A stretch of 64,000 nucleotides of DNA from Wenyingzhuangia fucanilytica. GTDB lineage: Bacteria; Bacteroidota; Bacteroidia; Flavobacteriales; Flavobacteriaceae. Made by a program: the position numbers and the translations under genes. Where the stretch lies: positions 1 to 64,000 of the forward strand of contig NZ_CP014224.1 of assembly GCF_001697185.1 (NCBI RefSeq), in the 5' to 3' direction. Below are positions 54,383 through 61,914 of this stretch, piece by piece (the first letter of the stretch is position 1; each line of letters starts with the position of its first letter). The notes beneath the pieces were generated by a model. The model had not been told where the DNA came from, ran no database searches, and saw only the letters and a list, made by a program, of their open reading frames with translations.

Positions 54383-55015
54383 TTAAGATTTTACTTGAGA
54401 AAAAACATAGAACATTTCTGTTGCTATTTGTAAACTTCTCTCATTGTATTTCTCAGCTTGTTGAGGAGTATTGTCAAACGCCTTTGGGTCTTCAAAAGTA
54501 ATAGGAATACGTTTTTCTGCTCCTGCAATAAAAGGACATCCACCATCTGCTTGAGAACAAGTCATTATTGCAGCAAATTCTCCTTCAGGATTAAAAGTAT
54601 CATCTAATTTTTTAGAAAAACCAATAATAGGATGAGCATTTTGTGTGTATTTAATACTATATACTGGATTGTCTGTTTCAGAAAGTTTTTGAATTTGAAA
54701 TCCATTATTTTCTAATGTTTCTGCCACTTTAGGAAAAAGTGCTGTTGCTTCTGTTCCTCCAGAGTAACAAGAAACGTTTTTAATTCCAAAATAGGATGCC
54801 ATTGCTTGTGCCCAAACTTGAGACAAGTGACTTCTTCTTGAATTGTGTGTACAAATAAAATTGATGCGGATGTCTTGTTTGTTTTCTACTTTAGATTGAA
54901 TAAAATCAACTAAAGGTTGTAGTGTTTCTTTACGTTCCTTAGAAATACTTTCTGGTTGTAAAGTTTCAATGGTTTGTTGTATTTTATCAAATACATTTGT
55001 TTTAGTAGTAATCAT
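54383..55015 (-). CDS. low-molecular-weight phosphatase-fold arsenate reductase-like protein
   Basis: 210 residues, larger than most ArsC. The LMW-PTPase loop is C55-T-H-N-S-R-R61 (CX5R) followed by SHLSQVWAQAM. A second block FAAIMTCSQADGGCPF contributes further cysteines, and FEDPKAFDNTP carries the DP-type general acid. Proteins of this shape accompany ACR3 pumps and DUF6428 in Bacteroidota and presumably reduce As(V) to As(III) or act on a related phosphate analogue. It lies 12 bases before acr3 and 22 after DUF6428. Confidence 0.85.
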   Translation of the reverse strand: MITTKTNVFDKIQQTIETLQPESISKERKETLQPLVDFIQSKVENKQDIRINFICTHNSRRSHLSQVWAQAMASYFGIKNVSCYSGGTEATALFPKVAETLENNGFQIQKLSETDNPVYSIKYTQNAHPIIGFSKKLDDTFNPEGEFAAIMTCSQADGGCPFIAGAEKRIPITFEDPKAFDNTPQQAEKYNERSLQIATEMFYVFSQVKS

Positions 55016-55037
55016 TATATATGTTTTAGTTTATTAG

Positions 55038-55502
55038 TTAACAACATCCTCCTCCTGGAGTACAACTAGAATTGTTGTTTGTTACAGGAATGGTTTTTAG
55101 TGCTGGTTCTGGAATTCCACAATTGTCTTTTGCCAAACAATCTGTTTGTTTACTAGTTAAAAGAAAATTAGTTCCGTTAAAGTCTAAACCAAATTTACCT
55201 ATGGTCTCTGCTTGGTATTCTACTTCAATTTCTAAATCTTCTATACCCAGCGTTTTTTCTGATAATTCAATGATGTTTAATAATTTTTCTGGGTGTAATC
55301 TGTGGTCATAATCATCTGCATTCCATAGTTGAAAGTTTACCACTTCTTCCTTGCGAACAGTTCCTCCGCAGTCTATAAAATGTTTGGTTATTTTTCCTAC
55401 TTCTGTTACGTGGAAATGATTAGGCACCAAAGTATTGTCCGGCAATTGAAATGCAATGGTGTTTAATTCTTTTAATACTGATTTTACTTCTGAAATTTTC
55501 AT
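55038..55502 (-). CDS. DUF6428 protein with C-terminal Cys motif
   Basis: 154 residues. The start (MKISEVKSVLKELNTIAFQLPDNTLVPNHFHVTEVGKITKHFIDCGGTVR) matches DUF6428, a family linked to arsenic operons. The C-terminal tail CTPGGGCC, together with DCLAKDNC, gives it a likely metal(loid)-binding surface. A 21-bp operator-like element lies directly before its ATG. The role is inferred from context only; a metalloid chaperone or sensor is possible. Confidence 0.82.
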   Translation of the reverse strand: MKISEVKSVLKELNTIAFQLPDNTLVPNHFHVTEVGKITKHFIDCGGTVRKEEVVNFQLWNADDYDHRLHPEKLLNIIELSEKTLGIEDLEIEVEYQAETIGKFGLDFNGTNFLLTSKQTDCLAKDNCGIPEPALKTIPVTNNNSSCTPGGGCC

Positions 55503-55510
55503 ATCTGTTT

Positions 55511-55531
55511 ATTGCGATTTTACGATTAATA
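55511..55531. promoter_or_regulatory. operator-like element, internal copy
   Basis: Differs at only two positions from the element at 55890-55910 (19 of 21 bases shared). It lies nine bases before the DUF6428 ATG. Probable second ArsR site. Confidence 0.6.
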
Positions 55532-55544
55532 GATGCAAATTTTT

Positions 55545-55874
55545 TTAACAACAAGTTTTTTGAGAAAGATCTTGATCTAAGAATACAGCCATTACTTGTT
55601 TCATTTTAGACCAATTTTCACTGTCTATACAATAACAAACGCTTGTTCCTTCTATGCTTCCTTTTATTAGGCCTAAGTTTTTTAATTCTTTAAGATGCTG
55701 AGAAATGGTAGGTTGCGCTAAGCCTATTTCGTTTACCAAATCACCACACACACAAGAGTTTATTTTGTACAAGTATTGTAATATGGCAACTCTAGCAGGA
55801 TGAGCAAAAGCTTTTGCAAAACGAGCAATCTCATTTTGTTTGTCTGTAAATATTTCTGTTTTTACTAATCCCAT
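55545..55874 (-). CDS. arsR: ArsR/SmtB-family arsenic-responsive repressor
   Basis: 109 residues. A winged helix-turn-helix region (NSCVCGDLVNEIGLAQPTISQHLKELKNLGLIKG) carries the metalloid-binding CxC of the alpha-3 type (CVC) directly in the DNA-binding segment. The C-terminus ends in KTCC, a second thiol pair. First gene of the operon; it should repress its own transcript and let go upon binding As(III). Two near-identical 21-bp elements, one in front of arsR and one before DUF6428, are the likely targets. Confidence 0.92.
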   Translation of the reverse strand: MGLVKTEIFTDKQNEIARFAKAFAHPARVAILQYLYKINSCVCGDLVNEIGLAQPTISQHLKELKNLGLIKGSIEGTSVCYCIDSENWSKMKQVMAVFLDQDLSQKTCC

Positions 55875-55998: not shown

Positions 55999-56595
55999 TT
56001 ATTTTTTAGGAAAAACAGTTTTACTAAAAAACAATAAAATCATTACTCCAATGGTAATAGCACTATCGGCAACGTTAAAAATGGCATTAAAAAAAGTAAA
56101 GTAATTTCCGCCCACACCAGGAATCCATTCAGGAAGATTTCCTTGCCAAATAGGGAAATACAGCATATCAACCACTTTTCCATGAAATAAATCACCATAG
56201 GCATTCGCTGTATCTAAAGTAGCCAATTGTCCGTAAGAATCGGTAAATAATACTCCGTAGAATACAGAGTCTATAATATTCCCTAAGGCTCCACAAAAAA
56301 TTAATGAAACCGAAATAATTAATAAGTCGTGTGCTTTTTCTTTAATACTTTTTCTTAACCAATATCCAATACCTACAATAGCACAAAGACGGAATAAGGT
56401 TAAAACAAGTTTTCCTGTTCTTCCTCCTAATTCAGTTCCCCAAGCAGCTCCATTGTTTTCTATAAAGTGAATTCTAAACCAATCAAAAACATAAATTTCT
56501 TCTCCTAGTTGAAAATTTGTTTTGATGTAAATTTTACTGATTTGGTCAATCAATAGAACGATAACAATAAGTAAAATAGATTTTTTTGTATTCAT
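55999..56595 (-). CDS. lspA: lipoprotein signal peptidase (signal peptidase II)
   Basis: 198 residues from the ATG at 56595 (an upstream ATG at 56622 would add nine residues). Four transmembrane segments. The catalytic aspartates lie in GALGNIIDSVFYG and FNVADSAITIG, and the conserved NNGAAWG is present. It cleaves the signal peptide of prolipoproteins, of which this window encodes at least six. It follows the DksA-like gene and ileS on the same strand. Confidence 0.95.
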   Translation of the reverse strand: MNTKKSILLIVIVLLIDQISKIYIKTNFQLGEEIYVFDWFRIHFIENNGAAWGTELGGRTGKLVLTLFRLCAIVGIGYWLRKSIKEKAHDLLIISVSLIFCGALGNIIDSVFYGVLFTDSYGQLATLDTANAYGDLFHGKVVDMLYFPIWQGNLPEWIPGVGGNYFTFFNAIFNVADSAITIGVMILLFFSKTVFPKK

Positions 56596-56671
56596 GTTAT
56601 TTGTAAAAAGAAAAGTTTGCAACCGAAATTACAAACTTTTTATATGGCAATTTTAAAAGGAATTCCTTTTA

Positions 56672-57061
56672 TTATTTATTTTCTGCATTTTTGGCGTCAA
56701 TACTTAGGGTAGCATGTGGCACCAATTTTAAGCGCTCTTTTCTGATTAATTTACCTGTAGCACGACAAACTCCATAAGTTTTGTTCTCTATACGTAACAA
56801 AGCGTTTTTTAAATCGCGAATAAATTTTTCTTGACGAATAGCCAACTGTACGTTTGCTTCTTTAGACATGGTCTCAGAACCTTCTTCAAAAGCTTTAAAC
56901 TGTGGAGAGGTATCGTCTGTGTTGTTAGAGCTACCGTTTTTATATGAACTTTGTAGAATTTCTAAATCTTTTTTAGCTCTTTCAATTTTCTTTAAAATGA
57001 TTTCTTTAAACTCAGCTAAATCTTTATCGCTGTATACTACTTTTTCATCTGCCGTTGCCAT
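56672..57061 (-). CDS. TraR/DksA-family protein with degenerate zinc finger
   Basis: 129 residues. A helical hairpin region (residues 12-90) is followed by the DksA-type C-terminal motif TYGVCRATGKLIRKERLKLVPHATLSI. In classical members four cysteines bind zinc (CxxC...CxxC), but here only Cys99 is left; the second position is Thr102 and the last pair is Ser120 and Asp122-like residues. The fold may be kept without zinc. Five bases after ileS and 76 before lspA, so the three form one operon. Confidence 0.88.
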   Translation of the reverse strand: MATADEKVVYSDKDLAEFKEIILKKIERAKKDLEILQSSYKNGSSNNTDDTSPQFKAFEEGSETMSKEANVQLAIRQEKFIRDLKNALLRIENKTYGVCRATGKLIRKERLKLVPHATLSIDAKNAENK

Positions 57062-57066
57062 AACTT

Positions 57067-60000
57067 TTAGATTTTATGAATGAATATTTTACTTTTTACA
57101 TCGTCGAATTCAATATCCAAACCATCATTTAGTTCGTTTACAAATTCTAGTTGATTAGTCAAGGTTTCACTCTTAATATAATCTTGGTTGGTATTTACTG
57201 CTTGTTCTAGTACTTCGTTAACAACAATAGATAATTTAATCTTATCGGTAACTTCTAAACCTGAATCTTTTCTTAGGTTTTGTACTCTATTTACCAGTTC
57301 TCTTGCAACACCTTCGTTTTTCAAATCATCAGAAATGGTAACATCTAAGGCAACTGTCAATCCTCCTTGGTTTACAACTAACCAACCTTCAATATCTTGA
57401 GAGCTAATCTCAACTTCTTCCTGTGTTAAATCTACTAAATTTTCTTCAATCTTGATAGAAATTTTACCTTCACGCTCTAATTTAGCAATGTCATCTTGCG
57501 TAAATTTTTGAATTTCAGCACCTACCAATTTCATGTTCTTTCCAAAACGAGGTCCTAAAACTTTAAAATTAGGCTTAATGTTCTTTACTAATACTCCAGA
57601 AGCGTCGTCTAATAAATCAATTTCTTTAACGTTTACTTCTGATAATATTAAATCCTGAACAGCTAAAATATCTTCTCTTTGTTGGCTGTCTAATACAGGA
57701 ATCATAATTTTTTGTAACGGTTGACGTACCTTAATCATTTCCTTTTTACGTAAAGACAATACCATTGATGATATTTGTTGAGCCTTTTGCATTTTACGCT
57801 CTAAGTTCTCATCTATAGCAGAAACATCTGCTTTTGGGAACTCGGCCAAATGTACTGACTCATGGTTTTCTAAATGTGTTGCAGATGTTAAATCTTTGTA
57901 AAGATTATCCATAAAAAATGGCGCAACAGGAGCACTTAATTTAGCTACAGTTAACATACAAGTATAAAGTGTTTGGTATGCTGATATTTTATCAGTACCA
58001 TAGTCTCCTTTCCAGAAACGTCTTCTGCTTAAACGTACAAACCAATTTGATAGATTCTCAGTAACAAAGTTCTGAATTTCACGAGTGGCTTTTGTAGCCT
58101 CGTATTCATTGTAAAACTTATCAGTCTTTAAAATCAACGTATTTAACTCTGATAAAATCCAACGATCTATTTCTGGTCTATCCTCTAATTTGATGTCTGC
58201 TTCAGCGTACTTAAATCCATCAATATTAGCATATAAAGTAAAGAAAGAATACGTGTTGTATAATGTTCCAAAGAATTTACGTCTTACTTCATCTACTCCT
58301 TCTAAGTCAAATTTTAAGTTATCCCAAGGGTTTGCATTAGAAATCATGTACCAACGTGTTGCATCAGGTCCATACTGATCCATCGTTGTAAACGGGTCAA
58401 TACCATTTCCTAAACGCTTAGACATTTTTTTACCGTGTTTGTCTAAAACCAATCCGTTTGATACTACATTTTTATAAGCAACATTGTCAAAAACCATGGT
58501 GCTAATGGCGTGTAAAGTATAGAACCAACCACGAGTTTGGTCTACTCCTTCTGCAATAAAATCAGCAGGATAGAATTCTCTGTTGTCTATCAACTCTTTG
58601 TTTTCAAAAGGATAATGTTGTTGTGCATATGGCATAGCACCAGAGTCAAACCAAACATCAATAAGGTCTGCTTCACGTTTCATTGGTTGTCCTTTTGGAG
58701 AAACTAAGGTAATAGCATCTACTACATTTTTATGTAAGTCTATGTTGTCGTAGTTCTCATCAGACATGTTTCCAACTTCAAAAGCATCAAAACTTGTAGG
58801 GTTTTCAATTCCAGCAGCTTTGGCTTTTTCTATTTCAGTTTTTAATTCTTCAACAGAACTAATCAATATTTCTTCTGTACCATCTTCGGTTCTCCAAATA
58901 GGTAATGGAATTCCCCAATAACGAGAACGAGATAAGTTCCAGTCATTTGCATTTTTTAACCAGTTTCCAAAACGACCGGTTCCGGTAGATTCAGGTTTCC
59001 AGTTAATAGTCTCGTTTAATTCGTGCATACGGTCTTTAACCTCCGTAACTTTTATAAACCAAGAATCTAATGGGTAGTATAAAATAGGCTTGTCAGTTCT
59101 CCAACAATGTGGGTAACTGTGCTTGTATTTTTCTACATTAAAAGCTTTGTTTTCTTCTTTTAGTTGAATGGCAATTTCTACATCTACAGATTTTTCTGGA
59201 GCTTCGCCATCATTGTAATATTCATTTTTTACGTATTTCCCTGCATGAGGTCCTACTTGTGATCTGAATCTCCCTTGTAAATCTACTAAAGGAACTGGAT
59301 TTTCATTCTCATCTAAAACCAACATTGGTGGTATTTCTGGAGTAGCATTTTTAGCTACAAAAGCATCATCTGCACCAAAAGTAGGAGCAGTGTGTACAAT
59401 ACCTGTTCCGTCTTCGGTAGTAACAAAATCTCCAGTAATTACTCTAAAAGCATTTTCAGGATTTTCATATGGCAATGCCCAAGGCAATAATTGTTCATAT
59501 TTAATTCCTTCTAAGTCTTTACCTAAAAATGTTTCTCCAACTAAAAATGGTATTTTTTTATCTCCTTGCTTATAAGCTTGTAGATCTTCCTCAGTTGATA
59601 CAGTAGCAAACTTTTTTCCAAATTGTTTTCCAACTAAGTTTTTAGCCAAGATAACGTTGATAGGTTCAAAAGTATATTGATTGTATGATTTTACTAAAAC
59701 ATACTCGATTTTTGGCCCTACGGTTAAGGCTGTGTTACTTGGTAAAGTCCATGGAGTAGTTGTCCATGCTAATAAATGTACTTCGGCTAAGTTTTGTAAA
59801 CTAGCAGGAAGTGTTTCTTTAATAGCTTTAAACTGAGCAACAATAGTAGTATCTGTAACATCTTGATACGCTCCAGGTTGATTAATTTCGTGAGAACTTA
59901 ATCCTGTTCCAGCTTTAGGAGAATATGGTTGAATGGTATATCCTTTATAAATCAAATTCTTTTTATAAATCTGACCTAATAACCACCATACAGACTCCAT

Positions 60001-60471
60001 GTATTTTGGCTTGTAGGTTACATATGGATTTTCCATATCTACCCAATATCCAATACGCTCGGTTAAATTGTTCCAAATATCTGTGTATTTCATCACTGCT
60101 TTTTTACAAGCAATGTTGTATTCTTCAATAGATATTTTTGTACCAATATCTTCTTTGGTAATTCCCAATTCTTTTTCAACTCCCAATTCTACAGGCAAAC
60201 CATGCGTATCCCAACCAGCTTTACGCTGAACTTTAAACCCTTTCATGGTTTTAAAACGAGGGTAAACATCTTTAATAGTTCTTCCTAAAACGTGATGAAT
60301 TCCTGGCAATCCGTTTGCAGATGGAGGTCCTTCAAAAAACACATATGGTTCTTTTCCTTCTCTAGCATCAATACTTTTTTGAAAGATGTTGTTTTCTTGC
60401 CAAAACTTAAGTGTTTCAGATGCAATATTGGTTAAACTTAATCCTTTGTGTTCTTTGAAATTTGCACTCAT
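57067..60471 (-). CDS. ileS: isoleucyl-tRNA synthetase, type 2, with altered HIGH motif
   Basis: 1134 residues, the length and pattern of the eukaryote-like IleRS2 (GLPxxxHxxG...TIKDVYPRF, WDTHGLPVELGVEKELGI). The class I signature, normally HxGH, reads GIHH at residues 57-60 (PGIHHVLGR). The KMSKR loop is intact (KKMSKR, Met683). The editing domain region has TTPWTLPSNTAL and the C-terminus lacks the zinc-finger of type 1 enzymes. IleRS2 is intrinsically tolerant to mupirocin, and GxHH variants have been reported to be hyper-resistant. First gene of the ileS-dksA-like-lspA group. Confidence 0.96.
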   Translation of the reverse strand: MSANFKEHKGLSLTNIASETLKFWQENNIFQKSIDAREGKEPYVFFEGPPSANGLPGIHHVLGRTIKDVYPRFKTMKGFKVQRKAGWDTHGLPVELGVEKELGITKEDIGTKISIEEYNIACKKAVMKYTDIWNNLTERIGYWVDMENPYVTYKPKYMESVWWLLGQIYKKNLIYKGYTIQPYSPKAGTGLSSHEINQPGAYQDVTDTTIVAQFKAIKETLPASLQNLAEVHLLAWTTTPWTLPSNTALTVGPKIEYVLVKSYNQYTFEPINVILAKNLVGKQFGKKFATVSTEEDLQAYKQGDKKIPFLVGETFLGKDLEGIKYEQLLPWALPYENPENAFRVITGDFVTTEDGTGIVHTAPTFGADDAFVAKNATPEIPPMLVLDENENPVPLVDLQGRFRSQVGPHAGKYVKNEYYNDGEAPEKSVDVEIAIQLKEENKAFNVEKYKHSYPHCWRTDKPILYYPLDSWFIKVTEVKDRMHELNETINWKPESTGTGRFGNWLKNANDWNLSRSRYWGIPLPIWRTEDGTEEILISSVEELKTEIEKAKAAGIENPTSFDAFEVGNMSDENYDNIDLHKNVVDAITLVSPKGQPMKREADLIDVWFDSGAMPYAQQHYPFENKELIDNREFYPADFIAEGVDQTRGWFYTLHAISTMVFDNVAYKNVVSNGLVLDKHGKKMSKRLGNGIDPFTTMDQYGPDATRWYMISNANPWDNLKFDLEGVDEVRRKFFGTLYNTYSFFTLYANIDGFKYAEADIKLEDRPEIDRWILSELNTLILKTDKFYNEYEATKATREIQNFVTENLSNWFVRLSRRRFWKGDYGTDKISAYQTLYTCMLTVAKLSAPVAPFFMDNLYKDLTSATHLENHESVHLAEFPKADVSAIDENLERKMQKAQQISSMVLSLRKKEMIKVRQPLQKIMIPVLDSQQREDILAVQDLILSEVNVKEIDLLDDASGVLVKNIKPNFKVLGPRFGKNMKLVGAEIQKFTQDDIAKLEREGKISIKIEENLVDLTQEEVEISSQDIEGWLVVNQGGLTVALDVTISDDLKNEGVARELVNRVQNLRKDSGLEVTDKIKLSIVVNEVLEQAVNTNQDYIKSETLTNQLEFVNELNDGLDIEFDDVKSKIFIHKI

Positions 60472-61173: not shown

Positions 61174-61914
61174 TTAAATGCCTCTTTCTTTTTTAATGGT
61201 TTCGTAAGCTTCTTGTATTTTCTGAAATTTTTCTTGAGCTCCTTTTAAATGTTCCTCTCCCAAATGTGCTAATTTGTCTGGGTGATGTTCTTTAACTAAT
61301 CTTCTATAAGCTTTTTTAATAGTATCATTATCATCAGTTTTAGAAACTTCTAAAATTTGATATGCAGATTCTGAATTATCATAAAACATAGCTTTTATAG
61401 AGTTAAAACTAGCTTGGTTGATATACAGATAATTTGCAATGGTTTGAATGGCTTGTACTTCGGAGTCGGCAACATGACCATCAGATTTTGCTATGGCAAA
61501 TAAAAAATGAATTAGTTGTGCTCTAGACTCAGGTGTCATATGGTTTCTTATTTGCGTACAAACTTCTTGAGTAGATAAAGAAGTGTCGTTAATAATTCCC
61601 TTAAACAACTTAAAAGCATTGTTGGCTCTGTCTTTACCGTACATCTGAACAAAATAATTACGAACATAGTCTAGTTCTTTTTGTAATATTTTTCCGTCAG
61701 CTTTAATAACAACTGCCGATAAAAAAAGTAGGCTAATTTCAAAATCTCCAGCTTGTGTGGTTCTACTAGTGTAAGTATTGTTTTTTTGAAATTCTGAATA
61801 GTCAGAGGTAGCGCCTTTAAGTGCAGATCCTATTAAATATCCTAAAGCAGCTCCAATAGGTCCTCCTGCAGCCCATCCTATTCCGGCACCAATCCAACTT
61901 GCAAATTTTTTCAT
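61174..61914 (-). CDS. TerB-like / J-domain co-chaperone (DjlA-like)
   Basis: 246 residues. A glycine-rich membrane-associating segment (IGAGIGWAAGGPIGAALGYLIGSAL) at the N-terminus is followed by a TerB-like helical domain (about 55-170) and a C-terminal J domain with the HPD motif (YRRLVKEHHPDKLAHLGEEHLKGAQEKFQKIQEAYETIKKERG). The architecture equals that of DjlA, which stimulates DnaK at the inner membrane. Confidence 0.88.
   Translation of the reverse strand: MKKFASWIGAGIGWAAGGPIGAALGYLIGSALKGATSDYSEFQKNNTYTSRTTQAGDFEISLLFLSAVVIKADGKILQKELDYVRNYFVQMYGKDRANNAFKLFKGIINDTSLSTQEVCTQIRNHMTPESRAQLIHFLFAIAKSDGHVADSEVQAIQTIANYLYINQASFNSIKAMFYDNSESAYQILEVSKTDDNDTIKKAYRRLVKEHHPDKLAHLGEEHLKGAQEKFQKIQEAYETIKKERGI

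Follow-up and report, generated by a model that had tools for sequence, protein, structure and literature searches.

A probable housekeeping type 2 isoleucyl-tRNA synthetase of Wenyingzhuangia fucanilytica carries the published GXHH signature, apparently standard in Bacteroidota

The ileS gene of Wenyingzhuangia fucanilytica (Flavobacteriaceae) very probably encodes a housekeeping type 2 isoleucyl-tRNA synthetase (IleRS2), the only IleRS that we found in the organism, which uses the published GXHH signature and is predicted to be a highly mupirocin-insensitive target. The gene lies at 57067..60471 on the minus strand of the window, the whole stretch of 64,000 nucleotides analyzed here, and specifies an intact protein of 1134 amino acids. 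The TIGR00392 (ileS) model scored this protein at 1001 bits against a cut-off of 621.4, which assigns it to the IleRS family. The Pfam matches were PF00133, Anticodon_1, and a C-terminal PF19302 (DUF5915).

The codons GGAATTCATCAC at 60303-60292 of the minus strand were read as Gly-Ile-His-His (GIHH), corresponding to residues 57-60. GIHH (60292..60303) thus replaces HXGH, as the original prediction had claimed, and with Gly in the first and His in the third position the enzyme falls within the G/AXHH subgroup. The claim that the rest of the enzyme is intact also held, with an unbroken open reading frame and the KMSKR loop (KMSKS motif) at residues 682-686 (58414..58428, minus strand). We located the segments WTTTPWT (residues 236-242; 59746..59766, minus strand) and GTGIVHTAP (residues 355-363; 59383..59409, minus strand), which we take to belong to the CP1 editing domain of IleRS, the former being its Thr-rich segment. 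The accompanying remark that HxGH is nearly invariant is valid for class I synthetases generally, but not for IleRS2, as the IleRS2 tree of a 2023 survey holds 86 G/AXHH sequences out of 163 versus 77 with HXGH (PMC10485003).

Structure-match scores and C-terminal domain content place the protein in type 2, in agreement with the earlier assignment. The closest solved structures were four entries of Priestia megaterium IleRS2 (8C8U, 8C8V, 8C8W, and 8C9D), aligned over almost the full length, and the best of these, 8c8w, scored 780.7 bits. The entry 1ile, presumably the Thermus enzyme, followed with 680.9 bits. The IleRS1 structures scored lower, with 302.8 and 310.9 bits for 8c9e and 8c9f (P. 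megaterium IleRS1) and 299.4 bits for 1ffy, presumably the S. aureus enzyme. PF06827, the IleRS1-type C-terminal zinc finger that we take as a marker of IleRS1, was not among the Pfam hits of the window protein. In the alignments, the GVHH of 8c8w_A, a mutant of P. megaterium IleRS2, occupies the same column as the window GIHH, and the natural enzyme (8c8u) has HVGH in this column. The P. megaterium IleRS2, which naturally bears HVGH and coexists with an IleRS1, therefore differs from the window enzyme, whose GIHH is natural and beside which no other ileS was found.

The genome consists of one contig of 3,427,057 bases (3.43 Mb) and is rated 100% complete. With three candidates scored, TIGR00392 gave a single match in it at E <= 1e-130. 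PF00133 matched six places, including the window ileS; the motifs at the others are HMGH, HVGH (two places within one 964-aa frame), HIGH, and HLGN, the last below the cut-off. Judging from motif and length, the HMGH gene is probably ValS-like, the 964-aa HVGH frame LeuS-like, and the HIGH gene MetG-like. A second canonical ileS elsewhere, named with the original prediction as grounds for refuting it, was found by neither profile search of the whole genome.

A sequencing or assembly error at 60292-60303 masking a real HIGH, a concern raised together with the original prediction, has practically no chance of being correct. GIHH is encoded in all six other same-genus genomes searched (L008-L013). 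Where the window reads GGA ATT CAT CAC at 60303-60292, the His codons are synonymous but different in five of these genomes and identical in one (L008). All other readable relatives have GXHH, and by the genetic code a conversion of His-x-Gly-His to Gly-x-His-His takes at least four base changes. The independent same-genus genomes, with GIHH in all and other His codons in five, refute the error reading. The window IleRS is shared at 89-95% identity by the same-genus genomes (G001-G006), and the dN/dS values of the window ileS against the six were 0.046-0.058 (NG86 method), indicating that purifying selection acts on the gene (dN/dS of about 0.05). Pseudogene status was rejected on the basis of these values and the retention of GIHH in all six.

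The original prediction treated the motif as peculiar to this organism. This claim was not sustained, as GXHH was present in every readable sequence of both the close relatives and the phylum sample. The close-relative set comprised 30 loci and the best 80 of a longer list, with at least four genomes present in both, and alignment-based reading revealed GXHH in 110/110 loci, as GIHH in 102 and GVHH in 8. In the same 110 loci, the loop reads KMSKR in 105 and KMSKS in 5. We also observed Flavobacteriaceae-like ileS genes on two MAG contigs titled Bifidobacterium breve (L113; 74% identity to the window's) and Robiginitomaculum sp. (L055; 77%), which are probably mis-binned.

To cover the phylum Bacteroidota, as delimited by the genome collection used, 296 genomes were searched with TIGR00392 at E <= 1e-130, with three candidates scored per genome. 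One match each was obtained in 294 genomes, and G205 and G319 had none at this threshold. A second search covered 30 of the surveyed genomes at E <= 1e-60 and again gave no match in G205, which is rated 100% complete and probably has an assembly gap here. In the remaining genomes the extra matches fell under the family cut-off, save for one gene in two pieces (G218). The ileS of G308 is divided between two contigs. The motif was then read in 140 loci, namely 30 from the first survey, 30 from the second search (picked mainly from lower-scoring families), and 80 further stretches. GXHH was found in 138 of them (124 GIHH, 11 GVHH, 2 GLHH, and 1 GMHH). The other two have no readable motif, since L174 begins past it and the L235 stretch does not cover it; L176, the other piece of the genome containing L174, has GVHH. 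The 138 readable loci correspond to 137 distinct genomes (G262 was read twice), a non-random sample of the 294 with an ileS match, and no exception to GXHH occurred among these 137.

GXHH is thus apparently fixed phylum-wide and, from the sequences read, would be the standard form in every readable relative. We infer an early fixation of the motif in the phylum, followed by inheritance. The swap itself is already published and looks ordinary for the phylum of this organism. The phylum-wide pattern is not put forward as new; its apparent fixation is a mild addition to the published work. Because G/AXHH has been published and GXHH was found in all readable loci of the phylum sample, we regard the window ileS as encoding a known IleRS2 variant with a housekeeping role.

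The statement that altered-HIGH IleRS2 enzymes have been described as mupirocin hyper-resistant agrees with the work of Brkic et al. 2023 (PMC10485003), which reports G/AXHH in IleRS2 and links it to hyper-resistance by kinetics and structures. According to this source, a shifted signature helix lets IleRS2 tolerate G/AXHH, and the third His sits at a position equivalent to the catalytic first His, with a modelled clash with mupirocin. The mupirocin Ki of DrIleRS2 (ALHH) is given as 6600 uM and that of its canonical mutant as 8.1 uM, while 35 and 460 uM are given for the GVHH mutants of the IleRS2 enzymes from T. thermophilus and P. megaterium, respectively (PMC10485003). The latter values are not in the mM range, and therefore the motif alone does not guarantee a Ki of that order. 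The G/AXHH enzymes of Deinococcus radiodurans and Streptomyces griseus resemble the window enzyme in being type 2 with the first and third signature residues swapped. However, they come from other phyla, DrIleRS2 has Ala in the first position, and the window enzyme is known from its sequence. The strings 'Bacteroid' and 'Flavobacter' are absent from the main text of PMC10485003, the tree of which may well include such species.

By analogy with these enzymes, the window IleRS2 would charge tRNA-Ile using GXHH, a published non-canonical variant of the class I signature. The third-position His would take over the usual role of the first His in amino-acid activation, as suggested by the solved P. 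megaterium mutant, and the type 2 active-site geometry would leave space for it. This bulky residue would clash with bound mupirocin, and the target is thus predicted to be highly insensitive. Our best prediction is mupirocin tolerance at the target level, which would be a phylum trait rather than an acquired resistance of the strain. The MIC of whole cells depends on uptake and efflux as well. The mupirocin MICs of IleRS2-dependent species cover a wide range (PMC4861432). Mupirocin in media is predicted to raise the diversity of Bacteroidaceae isolates (PMC13085705), which is compatible with tolerance but no proof of it. For Wenyingzhuangia, no measurement of Ki or MIC with mupirocin came to our notice in a literature search that had most subscription journals outside its reach.

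Recent acquisition of a MupA/MupB-like resistance enzyme, selected by mupirocin exposure in the strain, is a highly improbable origin for this ileS. The NCBIfam MupA and MupB models do match the window IleRS, as expected for related IleRS, but the scores of 733.5 and 741 bits are far under the curated cut-offs of 1900, which places the protein outside both exception models. Acquisition is further opposed by the finding of no other ileS in the genome, by the presence of the same enzyme in close relatives and of a GXHH IleRS throughout the readable phylum sample, and by the setting of the gene, which is chromosomal and conserved in order. Directly downstream lies a gene for a dksA/traR-type zinc-finger protein (56672..57061, minus strand; PF01258), followed by lspA, encoding signal peptidase II (55999..56622, minus strand; PF01252). 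Among the best 80 relatives of a longer list, 71 loci extend at least 1500 bases past ileS. In all 71 the dksA-like gene lies downstream in the same orientation as ileS, at a median distance of 20 bases, and in 63 of them lspA comes after it. No lspA was detected by tblastn (E <= 1e-5) after ileS and the dksA-like gene in eight loci, seven from Tenacibaculum and one from Spongiivirga (L045, L047, L050, L054, L060, L061, L068, and L110), each with at least 1500 bases available downstream. The order ileS, dksA-like gene, lspA looks like a conserved housekeeping arrangement rather than a mobile resistance context.

A second alternative differs from the housekeeping explanation in cause alone, not in gene identity. 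The motif swap could be an alternative that arose long ago within IleRS2, neutral or catalytic in nature, with tolerance as a by-product and never the selective cause; we rate this as a serious contender with somewhat less than an even chance. It is favored by the 137 phylum genomes read without exception and by the D. radiodurans IleRS2, which bears ALHH naturally and has a catalytic efficiency like that of canonical IleRS2 (PMC10485003). Conversely, the same authors presume natural mupirocin as the selecting agent, and GVHH introduced into canonical enzymes impairs kcat and KM by as much as 10-fold, indicating that the swap is not free everywhere (PMC10485003). Distribution alone cannot separate a by-product origin from selection of GXHH by mupirocin. 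On balance, we lean towards GXHH being ancestral and essentially exceptionless in the sole IleRS of Bacteroidota, and target-level tolerance being a phylum trait that predates, and was not necessarily selected by, the antibiotic.

What seemed a peculiarity of one genome becomes an apparent general rule, in which a large bacterial phylum appears to depend on a swapped-motif enzyme. Resistance-gene screens that flag ileS in Bacteroidota would pick up an inherited housekeeping trait. One such resistance listing of an ileS in Flavobacteriaceae is that of Candidatus Ornithobacterium hominis, for which isoleucyl-tRNA synthetase is entered against mupirocin (PMC10835994).

Elsewhere in the window, an Rfam scan gave 0 matches at gathering thresholds. 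At 54383-55874 (minus strand), an ArsR-family regulator, a DUF6428 protein, and a low-molecular-weight phosphatase-like protein, the match of which falls just under the Pfam cut-off, are encoded in a row and could represent an arsenic-response cluster. At 61174-61914 (minus strand), a single protein combines a TerB domain with a C-terminal DnaJ domain.
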